Assembly (NCBI GenBank): GCA_015852425.1
Contig: JAAAIG010000076.1
Coordinates: 1-64,000 of the forward strand
Reading direction: 5' to 3'
DNA: 64,000 nt
From: Gryganskiella cystojenkinii
Lineage: Eukaryota; Mortierellomycota; Mortierellomycetes; Mortierellales; Mortierellaceae
The notes below the pieces were generated by a model that worked only from the letters and a program-made list of their open reading frames with translations, was not told the origin of the DNA and searched no databases. Position numbers and translations under genes: made by a program. How positions within the stretch are numbered: position 1 is the stretch's first letter; each line of letters starts with the position of its first letter. Positions 37,271-49,300 of the stretch are shown one piece after another.

Positions 37271-39676
37271 GGTTGTTGTATGTGAAAAGTTGAAAGAAAA
37301 AAGATAGAATGAAGAGTGAAGAAACAGGAGAAAAAGATGTAGAGAGAGAGTTCTTATTTAGCAGGAAGGGGATTGAATATCTATCAAAAGAAGATAAAAA
37401 TGGGATTGTTCAAAAAGAAACGAAGAGAAAGAAGGGAGGAAGGAAGGAAAATGGGGGAGGAAAGGAAGAAAGGAAGGAGAGAGAAAGAAGGACGTCAATG
37501 AACAAATGGGCAATTGGATTCCGAGTTTTCAAGGTTTTTTTTTTGTCTCGTGTTGATGCAGAATGATTAGATGCATCCATCCACGCATGCAGCCGTGCAG
37601 CCAAAAAATCGAATGTCCGCTTCTCTGTTGTTTGCTCCCTGCTCACCATGCAGAGCGGACATTGGAAATGGTCGGGCGAGGGTGACGAGGATTGGCCTGG
37701 CGTGAGATTGCGAGACACAGAAAGAAGAAGTACAAGGTACAAATCCCATGTAAAAGGCGTTTAGGGTTTAAAGATTCAATAGCACTAAAGAAAGGAGCTT
37801 CAAGGGGGGGACGACAAGGGAAGGGTGGACACTCAGAAAAAAAAAGATCACTTTTGTGTGATGGAGAGGCAATCTTTTTTGGTCTTTTGTTCTTTCCCAC
37901 CTACAGGCACCTTTTCTTTATTACTCTGTTGCATCCATAGCTGTCGACTGGACGTCATCCTCCCGGAACCTTGTGGAGAGCAGGAAGGAAGGAAGGAAGG
38001 AAGGAAGGAAGGAAGGAAGGAAGGAAGGAAGGAAGGGAAGGTGGGCATTGACATCTGCGACAGAGAGCGAACATACGAGAGATTCAGAAAAGGTTTGACA
38101 AAAGGAAAGGAAAAAAAAGCGTGGCGGACAGGGCCTCGAATGCTCACTTCTCTCGTGTAAACACTATCGCTCTTTGGGTTCAACAGCAAGAAGAGCTGGA
38201 CGGACGCACCTCTTGATTCTTGTGTTCTTCCCGCTCAGTGATGCTTCCCATCCCATCTCTTCCGCCAACAGGGAACAAAAAAAAACTCTATCGATCTCCC
38301 CCTTGACCTGCGTAGGGCTGATACTGACCCGAATAAAACCGGCGACGATTTCGGGATCTTGCCCAGCCTTGAATACCACTCTTCGCTCGTACTTCGTTCA
38401 CTCCTCTTAAACTTGTATAGTATAGTAGACTCCTTTCTTACTCGATATCACTGTTGATCATGTTGGTGACAACGGTGGTTGTCTTGCATAAAACATTAAT
38501 GTCCGTAATAACCTGCTATCCTCCCTCAGTCTTATCAAGAAGGAGAGACCAAGACCCAGAATATCCAGGCAGCCTATCTGATTGAAGGAAAGGAGCTGAG
38601 ATCAACGCGGTCTCAGGGGTGGCGGATCCAATACAGTATTTTATTTTCGTTCTCCGAACCTAATTTCGATCCCTTTTTTTTTTTTTTTGGTGCTCAACTC
38701 TTCTCCTTCGGCGCCGAACTCCTCCGTCTTTCAAGGACTCCAAGTCTCCAGTCCGGCAACCAACAAGATAACTAATACAATACAAAAAAATAACCAGTTT
38801 TATCGATCTGGACCCTTCGATACTGTAGAAAGAAAAAATAAAGCGATCACGTCGCTCCATCAATAAAGTGTGAAGCTCGGAAAAGTTGCCTTTGACGGAT
38901 CTCTTGGTTTATGTTCTGCAATCAATTCTGCTCTTATGCCTGCAGCGCTGGGTTCCCACACTGTTGATCCACCTTGGCGTTTTGCAAAAAAAAAAAAAAA
39001 AAAAAAAAAAGAAACCTCCACGAAATAGATCTCAACCTAAGTGTATTCGAAAACTAGCTCATTAGTCTAATATCATGCGAAAACATTGTTGAGTCTAGTG
39101 CGATCTAACCTGGCACCTCTTCGATCTTGCAGACAAGTTAGAGCAAAGCATTGGTCTCTTAGCGCTCTTAAATAGATCTGGACCGTTGTGATATGCCGAT
39201 TGTGTCTTCTTCATAGAGCCACTTCTACCTCCTTGGAACACAAAGCTCTTTACAGTAGAACCGTCCGTTCCTCCGATTGTCGACATACTGTATGCATGGA
39301 AAGCAAACCGCAAAAAAAGAGACCGCTTGCGATTGGTGACAATCCTTGCTGGCCCCTGAACAGTCTGTGGGCTGGGAAAGGCTCATATGTTTTGATTTCA
39401 GTGCGTCCACTTGTTCACCCCTCTCTTTTGTCGCACAAAGAAAACACAAAGAAAACACAAAAAAAGTTGTGGTGCTGTAGGCATAGGAGTTGGCGCATTT
39501 GGACGATATGCTGAGATTGAGAGCAATAATAGTCGTGTGTCACAAACAAACCTATCCGGACAAGGGGCAACTTTTCCGTTGCCCATCTCACAACCCTGTA
39601 CAGCACAGTACTTGTATTATTCACAAGAATCATCGGTAAGAGAGTGAGAACATTTGCGAATCCTTCCTATCATTTT
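37271..39676. other. Gene-poor region upstream of SFP1
   Basis: About 2.4 kb with no supportable gene. It includes a purine-rich leader for SFP1 (37280-37500), a (GGAA)n microsatellite, and a poly-A tract at about 38986-39010. Open frames are short and low-complexity. Confidence 0.5.
37982..38038. repeat. (GGAA)n microsatellite
   Basis: About 13 perfect tandem copies of GGAA with a degenerate last unit. Short open frames over it are artefacts of the repeat. Confidence 0.95.
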
Positions 39677-40250
39677 CTACTTGTGACGTCGCCAGTATGT
39701 GCCTGCACGAAGAGGTGATTCCTTAACAGGTACGCCAGTTGTCTGTGCCTCAATCATTTTGTTATCTCCAATAAACAAGGCGACATGGTAAGGAGGCGTG
39801 CCGTAAAAAACGAGATCGCCACGTTGTTTGTCGCCCGCGCCAATGGATCGCAGAAGAGGACTGTTGAGCTGCGTTCGTGCAGCTCCTGAGCCAATGTCGC
39901 CACCGTCTCCTTTCCAGATGGCATAACGAACAAGGCCACTGCAATCGAAACCTCCCTTGGTTTGTCCAGGCTGACTGCCGTGTCCACCGCCCCTGTGCGT
40001 AGAACAAAAAAAATAGGGATTACACGGAATTTAATACCATGGCGTGTCATCTCGGACCATTCTCAATATTATGGGGCTTGAGGTTTTCGTCGTGTTTGTC
40101 CATTACAAGATATAAGCGATAGGGCATCACTCACCACACATAATGAGTGCCGATCTCGCCACGGGCTGCTTCAATCGCCTTGTCGGCATCGTACGCCATA
40201 GCACACATGGCCAAGATGGCACAAAAGAGGGCTTGGGCAAAGAATTGCAT
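39677..40250 (-). CDS. Secreted NlpC/P60 (C40) cell-wall endopeptidase
   Basis: NlpC/P60 enzymes are cysteine peptidases that cut peptide stems of bacterial peptidoglycan. Two minus-strand exons (40250-40135 and 39992-39677), joined by a GTGAGT donor and a CACAG acceptor, encode 143 residues. Residues 1-19 form a signal peptide (MQFFAQALFCAILAMCAMA), with cleavage before YDAD. The mature protein is a complete minimal domain: GEIGTHYVWGGGGHG, the nucleophile motif GGFDCSGLVRYA, then GDLVFYGTPPYHVALFIG with the catalytic His, and IEAQTTGVPV. No cell-wall binding domain is attached. The short length and the Gly-rich VWGGGGHG loop resemble bacterial proteins, while the intron and signal peptide show a working eukaryotic gene. 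This pattern suggests acquisition from bacteria. The usual third polar residue (often His) is Glu or Gln here. The gene lies in a repeat-rich island next to an assembly gap. Confidence 0.9.
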
Positions 40251-40310
40251 TTTGCATCAGGAAGGGAGGTTGTTGACAAGAGCAAAAGTGAGTTTCGGAG
40301 GGGGGGGGGG

Positions 40311-40320
40311 NNNNNNNNNN
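40311..40320. other. Assembly gap (10 N) after a poly-G run
   Basis: Ten Ns follow directly on a run of Gs about 60 bp upstream of the NlpC/P60 start codon. The promoter of that gene is therefore incomplete or joined across a gap of unknown real size. Confidence 0.98.
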
Positions 40321-41467
40321 AACTTTTTATGTGTGTTCAACAGCCTCTTGGCATCTGTTAATCAGCTTTCTTTTACTGTCGGAAATTCTTTAATACTCAA
40401 CACCAAGATCCGCTCTCACCGTAAACATCCCTGCGAGTACCCATCAAATGCTTGCGCCATTAGATGGCGGATCAAATGACATCAATCCACACAACGGGTG
40501 TATCTCACCACATTTTAAAGTAAAGGGATCAAAGTATTTAAAGATCCAGGTGGGGCTTGGCTTTAAAACGGCACTTTGAAGCGATAGGATTCTGAAAGGA
40601 GATTGAACCCCGGTGAAGGAAGAGGACGAGGGAGCAGTTGCTCAAGAAGGATGCCTTCCCCCCCGCAATGATCTGAGGCACCTTTTTTCAGAAAGTCTTT
40701 ATAAAGAGAGTGTATCGGACTCGAAGCACTCGGGCGGCGAAGTTATCTTTGGCAACATCGAAGACGTAACAAGAACTCCCTGACCAGCATTTGTTTCGTT
40801 GTGCATCAATGACCTGCAAGGACTAAATCTTCCAATGAAAATAAGAAATGTGCAGTGTACGGCGTCTCTCGAGCGAGACGGCAGGGGCTCGGTCAGAAAT
40901 GTATGTGAGCAGACCACTTGTGAGCAGGTGAGATAGACTTGCAGCAGACTGCATGCATGCATGAGCTCGGCGGATCCTTTTTTTGGAGTGGACGCCGACG
41001 CAAATTCGGTACAGTTTCGGGAACACGCTGAAGCCAAATCTGTGGTACAGTAAAAGGTTGCTTAAGGGTACCATCTAGTGATCCAGTGCGGTACAGCACC
41101 ATGACCATGGCCTTTTCTTCTCGTTACCATTCCGCTCCTTCGTTGGCAGTGCCATCTCCATTACCAATTACAGTCCCAGCCGCACTACCTCAACTTATCC
41201 TCCCTGTTCACTTTACCATCTCGTCATCCTCATTCCGCATCCCACCTTGGATCCAAAGCAGTAAAGACCTGAGCACGCCACCTCAAAATCGACCGTGTAG
41301 GTAGCCTTGTTCTTCCAAGGTTCAGTCCGTGGTGGCCTACATTATTTTGTTCCTCCGTGCTTCCCTTGCTAGTTCAAGAGCCTATTTTCTCATTAGCGAA
41401 TTAAGGTTCGTACGCTTAACTAGGTACTAATCCCTTTGACGCCCATCCTACTCCTCTTTGTCTCCCC
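40321..41467. other. Gene-poor region right of the assembly gap
   Basis: No gene or known repeat is supported in about 1.1 kb. Short open frames (for example around 41086-41304) are Ser/Pro-rich and show no family features. Confidence 0.45.
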
Positions 41468-42731
41468 ATGGGCATCTCAAAATCGTTTGAACCTTTGAAG
41501 GGCTGCAAGTCGATAAAAATTATGGACCTGGAGGCCCGCGGCGGATGCCATGTCGATGGATACATACATGAGGCTCAAGGGTACAGATCGTCGTCTGCTC
41601 GTAAAGCATCTCACGAAAGAAGCAAAGGCGGGAACATCCGTCATCGTCTCGGCTTCCGCGCTTCCCCTAGGTCGATGGGACGGGAAAGCGTGATGCATTC
41701 CTCCCCCCGTGCCGTCGGATAGCCCACTCTCTGATCAGGCGAGTATCTATCTTTCTCCGCCATTGTCAGCAACAAATAAGAACACCTCGAGCGGTTCTGA
41801 AAATATCTGAAGGCTTTATTCATTATGTTTACCCACGACACGGAAGGGAATCGCTCGCGAACGACGACTCAAAGCCAGGGCAAGGAGCTATGCCAAGATG
41901 TCCGACCTCATCGCCACTGCAGGAACTCGTCTACAGCAAATGGAGTCGAAGGCGAACCTGTCCAATGTCCATTACTTTCTTCCTTTGCTTCCTACCTTTC
42001 ACTCTTTTTGCGTCCCGAATCTATTTTACTTTTCCTTTATACTTCATGAAGGACCTTCCAACAGACACGTTACTCAGTTCAAGAAGCATATTGGAAATGT
42101 TGTGCTCACACACCGGATCGATTACCGTGGTGTCGATCCCCGAGACATCGAGGTAGTTGTTAACGAGCTCCGAGCTACCTATGGCTGGAAGGCGGGTAGG
42201 TGTCAATGGCAGTTCAACGTTATTGCTGGAAAATTAGCTTTTGAAGACCCCGATCTCACTGTTATCTTAACAGATAGCGATCTCTTGTTCATGAGGGCGA
42301 ACACGCTTATACGCTTCCAGTCCAAGTGTACCCGATTCTACTCCTACCCGATCTTGAAGATTCTGGAGCAGGGTGTATTGCAAACGGAGGATGAGTGACA
42401 TGTGGCCGTGATCATCTGTTTAAAAGACTATGACGCCAATGTTGCAAAAGCATCCTTCAAGATCGCTCTTAACGAGATCAAGACCATCCGTAAGTCAAGG
42501 TCCCGAGAAAGAATCGTGGATCGATCGACCGAGGGCTATGTCAAGGAATACTGTAGAAGGAAAGGCATCTACTTCAACACCGTCCAGAACTCTATCGAAA
42601 GTTTCGTGAACTTGAAGGAGACACCACTTGAGCATTGTCAAACAGGGGAGAGGATGATCTGGACGACTCGATTCGACGAATGGTATATCGAGTGGAGGCA
42701 CTATCACAGCGGTAAGAGTGAGCATATGTGA
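41468..42731 (+). pseudogene. Broken XPG/Rad2-like (PIN-fold) nuclease gene
   Basis: Several frames in order spell parts of one protein. It opens with an MGI start at 41468, like the N-terminus of XPG-family nucleases. Another frame then reads RRLLVKHLTKEAKAG (about 41590-41640). From about 42070 comes IGNVVLTHRIDYRGV, VVNELRATYGWKAGRCQW and the acidic LTVILTDSDLLFM, which resembles the XPG internal (I) region. The frame is stopped by TGA at 42396-42398, exactly where Trp would fit (EDE-stop-HVAVIICLKDYDAN), and continues open in the same frame to 42731. Frame changes upstream, loss of clean splice sites and the internal stop make it a pseudogene. The family call rests on the acidic motif and overall order and is moderate. 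An acidic stretch at 42950-43170 may be its former C-terminal part. Confidence 0.55.
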
Positions 42732-43442
42732 ATAATGCTGACTAGATACACTGGTAGCACCGTTAATAGATAGTGGTCACTCCCTATCTCTTCATTGTAC
42801 TAGGAGTCGTCAATCGCGGACCCAACAACGACGCCAACACTGAACAGTTTTGACAAATTTGACAGTCAGGGGGAAATCGACAGGTTATATCAAAGCATAT
42901 CGGTCTCAGCAATGATCTCGGAGTTGCTAGTACCGTCACAGCCATAAGCAACTCAAGGTGACAAAGACGACGGTGAGGAATGTTCGCATGCGAGACAACC
43001 ACTGGAAAAAGGCGATAGCTCAATATACGAGGGAAGAACCGAAAAAGCCGAGATCGGAGACAACGGCGTCGATCAAGGAAACACTAGAGAACAGCAGGAG
43101 GATGACAGCAACGAAGGCAATCACAGTAACTATAACATTCAATTGTCGTCAGATGACAACACTGGCTAATTGTCAGTATCGTCCTAGGAGCCTCCAAAAC
43201 GAATGATCAGGATTGTAAGGTTAGGCGAGCCGTCTTCAAGATTGTCCTACTCGCAGTAGATATCGGGCACGAGGACTTATCGAAGGTTCTAATGGAATCA
43301 AGGACAATAATGATGAAAAGCCACGAGACGTTACAGCGATCAGAGAAGACCCTGTTAGCATACTTGTATTTTTAAGTTTTAATATCTTTACTGTGTCGAG
43401 ATGTGCATTTAGTATACACTGTTTCCTCTTATTAGCAGCTGA

Positions 43443-44275
43443 ACTTCATCTTTTACGCGAGACGTGATTCTTGGGCTGACGAAGCAAGACGTTCATGCAA
43501 AGTCTCCTGCCTCCCTCTGTAAACCAATGCAATGCCTGTCTACGTTTTCAAACCACAGCGGTATCATCTGCATGGACTCGACTCACAAGACCGCCAGGTC
43601 ATTGTTGCCGTACCCAGATGACGATAACGTGTTCCCATATGAATACTCGTTTACTTTACTTGTGTGCGAGATCGAACAGCAAAACGTAGGCAATAAACAT
43701 TTTTTCTGATTTTGGGCCTGAGTGATAGAAACACTCTAAGGACTTGGCTGACCTGCGTCAAGGACCACTGTGGCCTGAGCGCGTCCAACACACGTCCAGG
43801 ACGTTGGACATCTATTATTGATCATTGCATCTTGCACAGGCATGGGAGGGCAATAATATCGTTCATTTGTGTAAGTGTCACAAGACGAGGGAAAGATTTG
43901 AACGGTGCCATAGTACCAGCATTTCAACCTTTCTATTTTCTTAGGTCAACTTCTGCGACGCTGTGCGACTCTTGTACCTTTGAAAGAGAACCGGATCGCC
44001 AAAACAGACGCATAGCGAGTGCAGAAGTGGGACGTTTTAACAAAGGCCTTTCGCAAAACGCAAGAGGATGATTCAAGTTCTGTGCTACAGCTGATGTTTT
44101 GCACTCTGTCCTCTCCAACAGCGACTTCACCAGTGTCATGTCGCATATTATTATGGACACCACATACCTTGCAAGCAATGTCAAAAACGCGTCAAAGAAA
44201 AATCTCCATCGCAAATGCAGCGCCGCGGGATTAATTTGCGAAGAAACAAACATAGAAAGGTTTTTTTCATCTCTT
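43443..44275 (+). pseudogene. Decayed MULE-type transposase remnant
   Basis: Fragments in shifting frames follow the order of a MULE-family transposase. FIFYARRDSWADEA begins near 43446, then IICMDSTHKTARSLLPYP and YSFTLLVCEIEQQ around 43561-43685, which resembles the DDE-domain text with the first catalytic Asp. Next come NTLRTWLTCVKDHCGLS, then IIDHCILHRHGRAI (region of the second acidic residue), then SDFTSVMSHIIMDTTYLAS, and a final ETNIERFF that recalls the HVESFH-type end. At least three frame changes and a stop at 43707 show that it is inactive. No terminal inverted repeats were found by eye. A related SWIM-domain protein is possible. Confidence 0.5.
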
Positions 44276-44730
44276 CAACACCTTCTTCCACTCTTTCCTT
44301 CCCTATTTTCTTCTTGTCCATCTTCCCTTTTTACCGCATGATCATCGTGTTTTCTTAGTAAGTAACTTCCTCTATCCCCCTTTATCTTTTTTTTGAAAAC
44401 ATGATGAGAAAAAAAATATCATAACTTTCGTTCTTCCTAGAGATGTCGCTGTGCGGCACTGTTGCGGAGACTTTAACATTCTGACCCTTTTCAAAAAATA
44501 ACAAACAAAACAAGAGATGTGATCAGTCCTTGTTGACGACGAGTTTTGAAGAAAATGTTTGACTAACCGTGGTTTTTTCTTCTGCTGTTTTTTGTCCTTT
44601 CTTCAACAGATCAGGTTTGTTATCGAGTTCAAGGACTAAAGAATATTGAACTGTTTTCAAAGTATGAACAAGAATAAAACGAATACTTTTCAAAGTGAAA
44701 ACAGAGTGCTTCCATGATGTAAAAAACGGT

Positions 44731-44799
44731 CAGATCAGAGGAGATGAGATCAGATCAGATCAGAGGAGATAGATCAGACCAGATCAGACCAGATGAGTG
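44731..44799. repeat. GATCA-type simple repeat
   Basis: A degenerate array of GATCA and GATCAGACC-like units, with interruptions GAGGAGAT, about 150 bp before the C2orf76-like gene. Confidence 0.75.
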
Positions 44800-44943
44800 A
44801 TGGAAAGAAAAAAAAAATGAAAACACGCGGCTTCCTTTTAAATTTTGAAGAAAAACAACGGATTCCTTTCCTTCGTACTGTGTTGTTTCTTCAATTTTCT
44901 TTTTCATCCAATTCCCTCTTTACCACATCACATCATTCATTCA

Positions 44944-45699
44944 ATGACGACTCCCAGCCCAAGCGAACCTCTGTCCAACACTCTCGCGCCCAGCACTGCT
45001 GCCACACTCACGATCCGTGTGATCAAGTCATTCGAGTACCGCACCTCAAAGAACCTCATTCTCCACAACATCGACCTCACCACGACTACCGTGGGGCAGC
45101 TCAAAGCAAAGATTATCGAGAGTATGAAATGAAGGAGGGCAGCAAATGGCCGTTTCTTTCCATTTTGCACCTGCACCTTGTTGATTTGCAAAAAAAAAAA
45201 AGAGAGACTATTTTTTTTTTTTTTTACCTTTGCCACCAAAAAAAATACTGACGCCAACCATGTTTTGTTCTCCTTTTGACAGCCGTTAAAACTGCTCCCG
45301 GTTGGAAGCCATACCAGACAACGGTCTTTGGTAATCTAAGCGACAGCCAAAAAGGGGATGAAATAGGCGTACGATCATTCTTTCTTACTAACAACGAGTC
45401 AACTTCTTCCAATAATAGACACCTTAAAGCTGTACACGAAAGCACATGGAGCAAAAACCATGAATTTGATTATCAACTTGGATCACGACGACTGGTTCTT
45501 GGACAACGAAAGCGATATCCTGACCTCTCATGGAATCGGTAAGGAGAGCGTAAAAAAAACAAGTAACATACCGCACATGTGGCCCTAACCACGCGCAAAA
45601 TTTTATTCCGTTTCATTGTTAGAAAATGAAACCGAGATTTCGATCTTCAACCGAGCGTTGTACGAGGCTTACAAGCAGCACCCAGACATGAAGTGGTAA
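44944..45699 (+). CDS. C2orf76/UPF0538 family protein
   Basis: A small conserved eukaryotic protein of unknown function with a ubiquitin-like character. Four exons (44944-45121, 45283-45330, 45419-45538, 45623-45699) join in frame to 140 residues. After a Ser/Thr/Pro-rich start, the family core reads LTIRVIKSFEYRTSKNLILH, NIDLTTTTVGQLKAKI, the short exon TAPGWKPYQTTVFG, LKLYTKAHGAKTMNLIIN, then DHDDWFLDNESDIL and ENETEISIFNRALYEAYKQHP. The human protein has the same order and length. The first and last blocks suit a beta-grasp fold, but this is inference. All splice sites are canonical. Confidence 0.88.
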
Positions 45700-46327
45700 A
45701 GCGAGCAAATAAAAGAAAAACGAAACAAGGTTTCTATTCTCGAAAAAAAATTCAAACGCTTCTTGTGGGAAGGCTCTATGCTATTTTGGTGGCGCCGATT
45801 CTTTCCTTTCTTTGTCTTTTTTAGAAAAAAAGGTGTCAATGTCTCCTTGAATTTTTATTTTCTCTTTCTCAGAACAAAGAATGGAGAAAGGAGGGAAAGA
45901 AGCTCATTGCGATGTAGGCCAAAGACAAGGGTCCATTCTCCCTGGCTCTGCTGACACAAAAAGGAACTCGTCTGAGCCAACGACGTTGAGCCAGGAGTTC
46001 CTCTCTTTTCTCGATTTGTCCAAATGGAAAAAAAAGAGAGACTCGGCAATAATGAAACAAGAGTCGGTTTTTGGCAGCAGACCAGCTGGACATTTTTTTT
46101 TCTTTCTTCTTTTTCATTTCTCCTTCTCTCTGTCTACACTCCCAGTTCTCGTATCGCAGATGGCAATGCTTCTCTTGGTTCCATCCCGAATCCCTCGATA
46201 TTGATTCTCTGATCCCTTCGTGCCCTTGCTACACCCGCCTCACATCACGACCCTAACGCCACCAACCGATATAACGACAACCAACTATTCTCAGGCTCGC
46301 CGTTTCCTGCCAGCCTTAAACATTGAC
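45700..46327. other. Intergenic region and 5' leader of the LRR gene
   Basis: AT- and T-rich sequence with CT-rich leader from about 46080. No gene was recognised. Confidence 0.45.
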
Positions 46328-49300
46328 ATGCAAACATACATTGATATGGAAAACCACGACACCACTACCACCACCATTAACCTTCAACCCATACCCAATG
46401 ATGCGACGACGACGACGACGATGACAACTGATCTTCTGAAGCGTAACGAACAACCCCAGCTGTCACAAAGTAACGATTTCGAATATGCCTCCAATGGCTC
46501 GACCGCTTTCAAGGAGGATCCACGAAGGTCAAGAGAAGATGGACCCTTGTTGCACGAATCGGTTGTCCAGTCATCGCCGCTCTTTACGCCGTTAAAACTT
46601 AAGCCCCTGTGTTCGGAGGACAATGAGCCAGAGGCGAGTGACAGCCCTCCTGGACTCTTCTTGATTACTGCACTGGAAAACGTCTCTGATTTTCCCAAGT
46701 CGACAAAAACGACGACGACGACGACAAGAGCAATGTTTTGCAAGCAAGGCAGTTGTCCAGGTGAGTGAAATGGCGGAAAGAGAGTGCTTTACTGCTTTCT
46801 TTCGCAAAAAAAAAATCCGCCAGTCGCCTTTGACATCGCTTGGTTGTCCAACAGACCTCTCTATCCCCGTAAACAGAGAGCAAAAAAACAAAAATTGGAT
46901 TGTTCCTTTCGGAAGGTCGAGTTTGTTTGTGCCTCCTTGAGACTCGGACACATTTGCGGATTTGTATCCCTTTCTGTTTGTGTTCCAGGGAACATGGAAA
47001 AAGTTGATGGGCGCGAGTTACAAGTGAACTCAACATAACGCGCATAAGAAAAAAAAAGAGTGAGGGAGAGATGACGGACTAATGACGAACCATATCCACA
47101 AGTTGTTTCCTTCTTGGGGGTCACCAAGAGGATGACGGTCGAAAAGAAAAAAAGAGCCAGTCCATGCAAATGCCGCATCAATGACCAAACTCGAGGTCTG
47201 CGCTCTTTCCTTTTCCTTTTTTGTTTTGGCGGTTTTCTCCCTTTTTCTTTCATACCTCCACTCCGACTTCTCATTTCCTTCCCTCTCGCCTCTGTCACTG
47301 TTCTTTACCCCCTCTTTACTCCCTGCCACCGTTGCAATCTTTCCATTGTGAGTTTGCATTCCGGCATTCCTAACCTGCAGCATGTTTTCGTGAACCCATT
47401 GTTCGCAAACCTACCCTGCAATGTAAGTCACGTCTAACCCGCACGCCTCTTTGTCCCTGTTCATGTAGGTCCGGATAATCCCAAAATCCCGTTTTCCGGT
47501 CCAACGGCCTCTGTCTCCACGGGCTCTTTGTCCACTTTGGTTCCGAACTTCGCCCAACAGGACTCGTCGACTCTCACAAGTAGATCCTCCTTAAATCACT
47601 TCCCCCTCTCCTCTTCATCGGCGTCTTCAGCTTTGTTGGCAACTTCCTCCCTTAGTGAGACCCCCTTGAATCCCTCCTTGTCTTTGTCCTACTCTGTCGC
47701 ACCCAACTCTTGTCCAGCTGGTCCTGACTTGACTTCCTTGGTCTTAGCGCCATCCCTTTGCGGTAACTCTTCGACTGGAACAACATCAACTCCATCCATA
47801 GCACTGAACTCCACCAACGCAACAGTATCAGAGCCCACATCATTTTACTGCTCGGGGCCTCCTTCTTTCCCCCTCGTCGCCACATCGAGCTCCTTGTTCC
47901 TCACACCTGTTGCGGACCGGTCAACAACAGCAACAACAACAACAACAACAACAGCAACAACAACAACAACAATCGCCCCCGAATCCGTGAGCACGCCAAT
48001 TACAGAGACTGTACACCTTGTGTCCTTGCCCGCACATATCGATTTGTCCAAGCTCCACCCTCGGACTCAATCTACCGGTTACTCAATCGCATCCTCCATC
48101 AGTACATCGTCCCTATCCTCTTCCCAGTACCCGACCTCCTCTGCCCAAAACACACCTCAGTTCAAAAAATCTCCACATTGGCTTGATCACTTCAAAGGGC
48201 GACCAGTAACGAAAAGTCCTTCCTCTAGTACCCCTAATCTCTTATCCTCTGCCTCCGCTGGTGCATATAGAAGCAGCAACATCAGTTTTGTTAGTGCTGC
48301 GAGTGCCGAAGACACCCCTTACAGCACCCCGACGCATCCTGCACCCCCCAACAACAAGTTTCTGAGACGTACTCGATCGTTCTCCTTCCCGAACGGCACC
48401 ACCAACGATTCCCCACATCATCTGCCGTCCTCCTCTGGACGAGGTTACAACATCTTTCAAAGGATGCTCAAGCTCACAAGGAACCACTCCATGCCCGTCC
48501 CCACAAGCAAGGGTAGTGGAGCACTTAAGACTTCCAACACAAACGTCTTTTCCTTCCCTGCACTCTCGCTCACAAGAACCACTAGCGAAAAGAGTGTCTT
48601 TGGAGGGAACGAGAACAATCCACCGACCCCAGGGACGCGATCTCGCTCCGCCTCCGCTTCGGATTCAGTCCCGATTGCACCCATTATCTCGGCCATCTTA
48701 CAGGGAAACTTTTTGGCGTTGTCTGATCTTTATCTCGATATTTTGATCCGCGTCATGGCTGGCAAGAACTCGACAGCACTCGAGACGATCAGTCTGACAG
48801 GAGCGGCCATTTCAGGCACCGATGGAAAGTTGCTCGCCAAGCTGATTCGGTCGTCAGACGCGGCCAATATCAAGGTACTGAAACTAGACCGGAACGCGAT
48901 CAGTCTGCAAGCCTACAAGAATATGTTCGAAGTCTGGCGACACAACCATACGATCACGACGTTAAGTCTTGTCCGGTCGGGTGTGAACGACAAGACGATT
49001 AAGTACCTGGTCAACGCCCTCAACACGAACGACACGTTACGAGAGCTTGATCTTTCGAGTAATCAGATTACTGCTTTAGGGATTGAGGCTCTTTGTGAAG
49101 CCCTCATTTATAACCGTGCCTTGATCCGTCTCTGTCTTCAGTCCAACAGTCTCAAGAAGGCCGCTGCACCTCACCTGGCTAGGTTACTCAGCAAGAATCG
49201 AGTGATCCGACACCTCAATGTTGGTTCCAATGGTCTTGGACCCGAAGGTTGTGCCCAAATTGCAGACGCCGTGCGATTCAACCGAACATTAAACTCGCTC

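Follow-up and report, generated by a model that had tools for sequence, protein, structure and literature searches.

Closest Described Enzymes

NlpC/P60 enzymes have already been described from fungi, and one of them, CwhA (B0YAY0) of Aspergillus fumigatus, was characterised in 2025. According to that report, this secreted enzyme cuts between stem-peptide residues 2 and 3 (PMC12332128). Here we describe a gene for a protein with similar predicted features, an export signal and an NlpC/P60 domain, on the minus strand at positions 39677-40250 of a 64,000-nucleotide stretch from the fungus Gryganskiella cystojenkinii (assembly GCA_015852425.1, contig JAAAIG010000076.1, positions 1 to 64,000), which is called the window below. 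Its product is likely to be a small exported C40 DL-endopeptidase acting on soil bacteria, from a family that came from bacteria, most likely from an actinomycete. CwhA differs from it by a bacterial SH3 domain located before the NlpC/P60 domain and by the position of its gene near secondary-metabolite clusters (PMC12332128). The two were set apart by description only, and no Aspergillus-named protein was found among the 120 best of 7,739 family matches.

The catalytic fold and the Cys-His-Glu triad are also common to RipA and RipB of mycobacteria and Cg1735 of Corynebacterium, the structures of which have been solved. These proteins are longer and contain NlpC/P60 as only one part, whereas in the fungus a predicted signal peptide is followed by this domain alone. 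The NlpC/P60 hydrolases of Trichomonas vaginalis are likewise eukaryotic and laterally acquired, and are described as DL-endopeptidases directed against bacteria (PMC6299479). The LytFM and RipA-like proteins of mites are likewise small, and actinomycete enzymes were reported as the nearest to them (PMC5586350). Neither the two-cysteine loop nor the fungal clade's WGGGHG..PG motif is present in the mite proteins (Oppia, Tyrophagus). A lateral origin of eukaryotic NlpC/P60 proteins has been proposed, with fungi or ascomycetes mentioned (PMC12332128, PMC6299479, PMC5586350).

The gene is one member of an old family common to related fungi, and its kind is already known from CwhA, Trichomonas and the mite enzymes. 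A preliminary description of the window had regarded it as little-described. This holds for the family in Mortierellaceae, of which the open-licence literature (NlpC with Mortierella or Mortierello-) gave no report, but not for the kind of enzyme, to which CwhA belongs (PMC12332128). At least one copy of the family carries an intron, and the paralogues differ in predicted location. If active, it would be an antibacterial enzyme family of probable bacterial ancestry spread in one group of soil fungi outside Dikarya. Activity would also make it possible to test the way in which early-diverging fungi deal with bacteria, both outside their cells and perhaps within them.

Gene Structure and Intron

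The gene consists of two exons (116 and 316 nt), encodes 143 residues and ends with a TAG stop. The spliced translation is 100% identical to the public protein BGZ83_010533 of G. cystojenkinii (Mortierellaceae), a model already present in the public annotation. The features are as follows:

40135..40250, minus strand: exon 1, which holds the start codon and codes for residues 1-38, with an N terminus resembling a signal peptide, plus two bases of the codon for Trp39 (translation; identity to BGZ83_010533)
40194..40250, minus strand: predicted signal peptide, residues 1-19, with putative cleavage near AMA/YD (hydrophobicity scan)
39993..40134, minus strand: spliceosomal intron of 142 nt, GTGAGT...CACAG, phase 2, inside the Trp39 codon (splice-pair scoring)
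39677..39992, minus strand: exon 2, with the remainder of the NlpC/P60 domain and the TAG stop (translation, Pfam)
39941..39943, minus strand: codon of catalytic Cys56 (FDCSG), equivalent of RipA Cys383 (alignment)
39785..39787, minus strand: codon of catalytic His108 (PYHVA), equivalent of RipA His432 (alignment)
39749..39751, minus strand: codon of Glu120 (MIEA), third residue of the RipA-type Cys-His-Glu triad, equivalent of RipA Glu444 (alignment)
40311..40320, no strand: assembly gap of 10 N

Since the gap is separated from the start codon by 60 bases, the upstream region is incomplete. In the unspliced frame, a stop follows directly after Trp39. From the start codon on, 314 GT-AG pairs (40-300 nt) were found, and 306 products, the unspliced one included, were scored with a family profile that excluded the window protein but contained its Podila relatives. 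The annotated 142-nt intron gave the top score (208.7 bits), followed by a runner-up with 196.2 bits, and the unspliced product reached 27.9 bits. The guanine-cytosine (GC) content is 0.415 in the intron, whereas the two exons have 0.534 and 0.538. The search for a branch point of the CTRAY type in the intron yielded only the less strict CTTAT, at a large distance from the acceptor. The predicted intron passed all sequence-level tests except that of the branch point, and the preliminary description was right about the coordinates, the strand and the placement of this intron inside the VW-GGG motif. Two paralogues located elsewhere in the same genome, on contigs C149 and C440, have this motif in an uninterrupted, intronless frame.

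Contamination, already dismissed in the preliminary description, was ruled out by the intron, by the 76.6-kb host contig (C826; 76,614 bp) in a 35-Mb assembly (34,989,676 bases, 1,050 contigs), and by the presence of proteins with 76% identity in two assemblies of Podila.

Two other public models were noted at the intron site. In P0051 (Mortierella antarctica) an exon ends at the same Trp of the VW-GGG site. P0021 (Actinomortierella ambigua) has 15 extra residues there, which do not fit a retained AG-ended intron.

Domain, Catalytic Residues and Export Signal

The protein matched Pfam NLPC_P60 (PF00877, peptidase family C40) with 63.2 bits, the curated cut-off being 23, and this was the sole Pfam domain found in its 143 residues. 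The earlier reading of a complete NlpC/P60 domain with FDCSG and PYHVA is supported by this score and by the Cys56-His108-Glu120 triad. The predicted structure (predicted local distance difference test score of 92.6) has the NlpC/P60 fold and matches mycobacterial and corynebacterial endopeptidases. The likeness is at the level of the domain only: the curated cut-offs of the full-length NCBIfam families were not reached for RipA (62.6 bits versus 625) or RipB (62.5 versus 335). The two Podila proteins with 76% identity keep the triad. The two-cysteine loop is absent from the window protein, and other copies of the family keep it.

The N terminus reaches a maximum 9-residue Kyte-Doolittle mean of 2.82 and is followed by an AMA/YD-like site. 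The signal peptide proposed earlier is consistent with both features and stands as a prediction, judged by hydrophobicity and this site and not by a trained predictor.

The Family in Mortierellaceae

In the profile search, the 7,998 candidates with most shared words were scored; 7,739 of them reached E <= 0.001, and the listing comprised the best 120. Counting the first protein search and these 120 matches, the family includes at least 35 fungal proteins (31 assigned by name, 4 by sequence) from seven genera: Gryganskiella, Podila, Actinomortierella, Mortierella, Linnemannia, Lunasporangiospora and Entomortierella. The three G. cystojenkinii proteins of the family are BGZ83_010533, BGZ83_001747 and BGZ83_006972. 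A taxonomy look-up of one species from each of the six genera other than Mortierella placed all of them in Mortierellaceae. The other named eukaryotes among the best 120 of the 7,739 matches were the mites Oppia nitens and Tyrophagus. The matches listed thus show the pattern of a xenologue: few eukaryotes (Mortierellaceae, mites), many bacteria, and the fungal copies in one clade.

The main tree was built from 89 rows, namely 33 fungal, 7 mite-like and 49 labelled bacterial; it took 25 of the 80 genome-contig loci described below and left out P0021 and P0051. The fungal rows P0004, P0010, P0028 and P0037, the mite-like rows P0044, P0047, P0064 and P0075, and most bacterial-labelled P rows were assigned by sequence. 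The fungi formed one clade (support 98/97), in which a subclade of five rows (100/91) unites the window protein with two proteins of Podila clonocystis and single ones of M. alpina and Mortierella sp. GBA30. With 11 other rows, the support of the fungal clade was 92/91. An enlarged quick tree contained 135 rows, after nine, mostly long branches, had been dropped (six bacterial-labelled P rows, P0064, L064 and L073). Here the fungi were on one side of a branch, with a Shimodaira-Hasegawa-like approximate likelihood ratio test (SH-aLRT) value of only 61.

The placement in the clade and the subclade indicates that the gene is old in Mortierellaceae and was multiplied there. A tree had been named in the preliminary description as the test that could weaken acquisition of a bacterial gene, and in all three trees the protein falls on the fungal side. 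Its bacterial ancestry is still probable, and what lacks support is a recent local acquisition, the protein being inside an older multi-copy fungal clade.

Some family members have unusual sequences. P0039 (Mortierella alpina) and P0041 (Entomortierella chlamydospora) have a cysteine-rich N-terminal stretch without a Pfam name before the NlpC/P60 domain, and P0064 has a similar stretch.

Ancestry and Donor

The scan of bacterial and archaeal genomes confirmed at least 511 relatives, of which 80 loci were kept; all 80 carry Actinomycetota titles, and the motif used favours Actinomycetota-like sequences. The loop GTCxxYxG..PC before DCSG is present in 16 of 33 fungal and 17 of 49 bacterial rows and in none of the 7 mite-like rows. 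The bacterial rows with the loop come from Streptosporangiaceae, Fodinicola and a relative, Actinomycetospora, and a Renibacterium metagenome-assembled genome. Because the two-cysteine loop is common to fungal and actinomycete rows, an actinomycete donor is favoured, and on this sequence evidence it is the most likely one. The distribution of the loop on the tree needs four changes. When the loop columns were taken out, a single clade of all loop-less fungi was not rejected (p 0.095, log-likelihood 19.9 lower), and the loop may have been lost once or several times.

Several results weigh against this choice of donor. The approximately unbiased tests did not discriminate, with p of 0.376 for the grouping with loop-bearing actinomycetes, 0.32 with streptomycetes and 0.295 with mites. 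None of the four groupings was rejected (p 0.146-0.376), including, against expectation, that of a fungal subclade plus mites. Among the 120 listed matches, the mite Oppia scored 115 and 113 bits versus 112 for the best named bacterium, a Streptomyces. In the enlarged tree, all 96 bacterial rows were opposite fungi and mites across one branch (94). In a survey of 44 early-diverging fungi, the xenologues of Mortierellomycota are attributed first to Burkholderiales and then to Actinomycetia, and over half of xenologues are reported to be intronless (PMC11291939). Since fungi and mites sit together opposite the bacteria and Oppia scores so high, the two may be linked, for example by one shared transfer.

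A phage route was also considered. PHROGs gave phage tail-type profiles matching at the domain level. The best 80 viral-contig loci had 26-39% identity, lower than the 37-53% of the actinomycete loci, and for this reason the route is not favoured.

Proposed Function and Alternatives

According to our proposal, an ancestor of Mortierellaceae would have acquired the family from bacteria, most likely from an actinomycete, after which it would have been duplicated; the window copy has the intron and lacks the two-cysteine loop. Once the signal peptide has been cleaved off, the mature enzyme would leave the hypha. In the stem peptides of bacterial peptidoglycan, its Cys-His-Glu triad would then hydrolyse the bond that joins gamma-D-Glu to the diamino acid (residues 2 and 3). 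The glycan strand would be cut by a glycoside hydrolase family 24 (GH24) muramidase of the same genome. Soil bacteria would thereby be weakened or lysed, and muropeptides set free. The candidate partner is encoded by one gene:

L167 2480-3358 (Pfam match G000 C291:40030-40431), minus strand: GH24 muramidase gene (Pfam)

This was the one GH24 match in G. cystojenkinii, an open frame with a signal-peptide-like start and a poly-glycine linker. Its N-terminal stretch is SH3-like by eye only, and Pfam SH3_3 did not report it; in the genome search, the single hit of SH3_3 was below the cut-off and located on C863, with none on the GH24 contig C291. GH25, CHAP and Amidase_2 had no match in the genome, where exon-split genes may escape such a search, and PADLOC had no match. 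A GH24 enzyme with a cell-wall-binding domain from Mortierella sp. ZY002 is reported to be active (PMC10394673). For CwhA, it is reported that the recombinant enzyme lyses Gram-positive bacteria and that bacteria induce cwhA. On its own, CwhA gave no detectable release from the B. subtilis wall, and release was seen together with a muramidase (PMC12332128).

The proposed attack on soil bacteria is weakened by other observations. In coculture, killing was substantial only with the strain overexpressing CwhA, and the wild type killed few bacteria (PMC12332128). The window protein is a bare domain and lacks the SH3 domain of CwhA. RipD is a non-catalytic NlpC/P60 member, so membership in the domain family does not fix the function. 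The Linnemannia gamsii copy P0033 reads DSSG in place of DCSG, and this copy may be inactive or only bind. The predicted activity could, moreover, serve a nutritional or housekeeping role, in which dead bacterial walls are digested or muropeptides recycled and live competitors are not attacked. We consider this role possible but doubtful. Mortierellaceae are soil saprotrophs, the predicted activity would be identical, and the GH24 muramidase of the same genome fits both cases. The weak killing by wild-type A. fumigatus points in the same direction, whereas lysis of Gram-positives by recombinant CwhA and induction by bacteria favour attack, though by analogy only (PMC12332128). Loss of function altogether, in a decaying or silent copy, has little probability: an assembly gap lies upstream and P0033 has lost the catalytic Cys, but in the window gene the frame, splice sites and triad are intact and the two Podila relatives keep the triad.

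Other alternatives concern the site of action and the age of the gene. The hydrophobic start is missing from 12 of the 33 fungal rows (maximum 1.16), which begin a few residues before the domain. Rows without it are P0010, P0023-P0025, P0027-P0031, P0033, P0036 and P0038, and the C440 paralogue (L002 1447-1902, G000 C440) is counted among the twelve; a thirteenth low row, P0037, has a long, unclear N terminus and was left out of the count. These sequences give a hint of intracellular proteins, and an upstream exon could exist. If cytoplasmic, such copies may meet endohyphal bacteria. A two-compartment toolkit from one bacterial gift, with exported copies and GH24 outside and signal-less copies as a cytoplasmic defence or sensor against endohyphal bacteria, is rather unlikely. 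That the enzyme itself manages these bacteria or senses them via muropeptides is quite unlikely. Endobacteria were reported from 53 of 238 Mortierella isolates and 22 of 59 species (PMC6307997), and the 12 rows could act inside the cell. However, the window's own protein carries the predicted export signal, and the survey gives no Burkholderiaceae-related endobacteria for M. cystojenkinii (0 of 1 isolate), and 0/3 and 0/2 for M. clonocystis and M. selenospora, all of which carry the family (PMC6307997). It is extremely improbable that this gene alone was recently transferred into a mobile island of the G. cystojenkinii genome. Few long open frames are nearby and coding stretches at ~41.8-42.7 kb are broken, but the family forms a clade in seven genera, the surrounding DNA is low-copy and the intron is present. 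The GC content at third codon positions of the gene (0.493) is close to that of its paralogues (0.528 and 0.546) and of five long unvalidated open reading frames (ORFs) of the window (0.517-0.601), so that by composition the gene does not stand out as foreign.

Surroundings of the Gene

The preliminary description had located the gene in a repeat-rich island with decayed mobile genes. This was not borne out by a genome search, which skipped simple repeats and very common words. The region 38200-41500 had one other weak match of ~100 bases elsewhere in the genome. For this region and 41500-46000, the off-site matches were only weak low-copy stretches on C242, C66 and C428. Tandem repeats within 37400-47000 amounted to four short arrays, and Pfam gave no name to four ORFs within 40.7-44.1 kb. 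On the plus strand, at 41811-42728, adjoining open stretches are interrupted by stops, the first part having no Pfam match; this broken stretch is probably a decayed gene.
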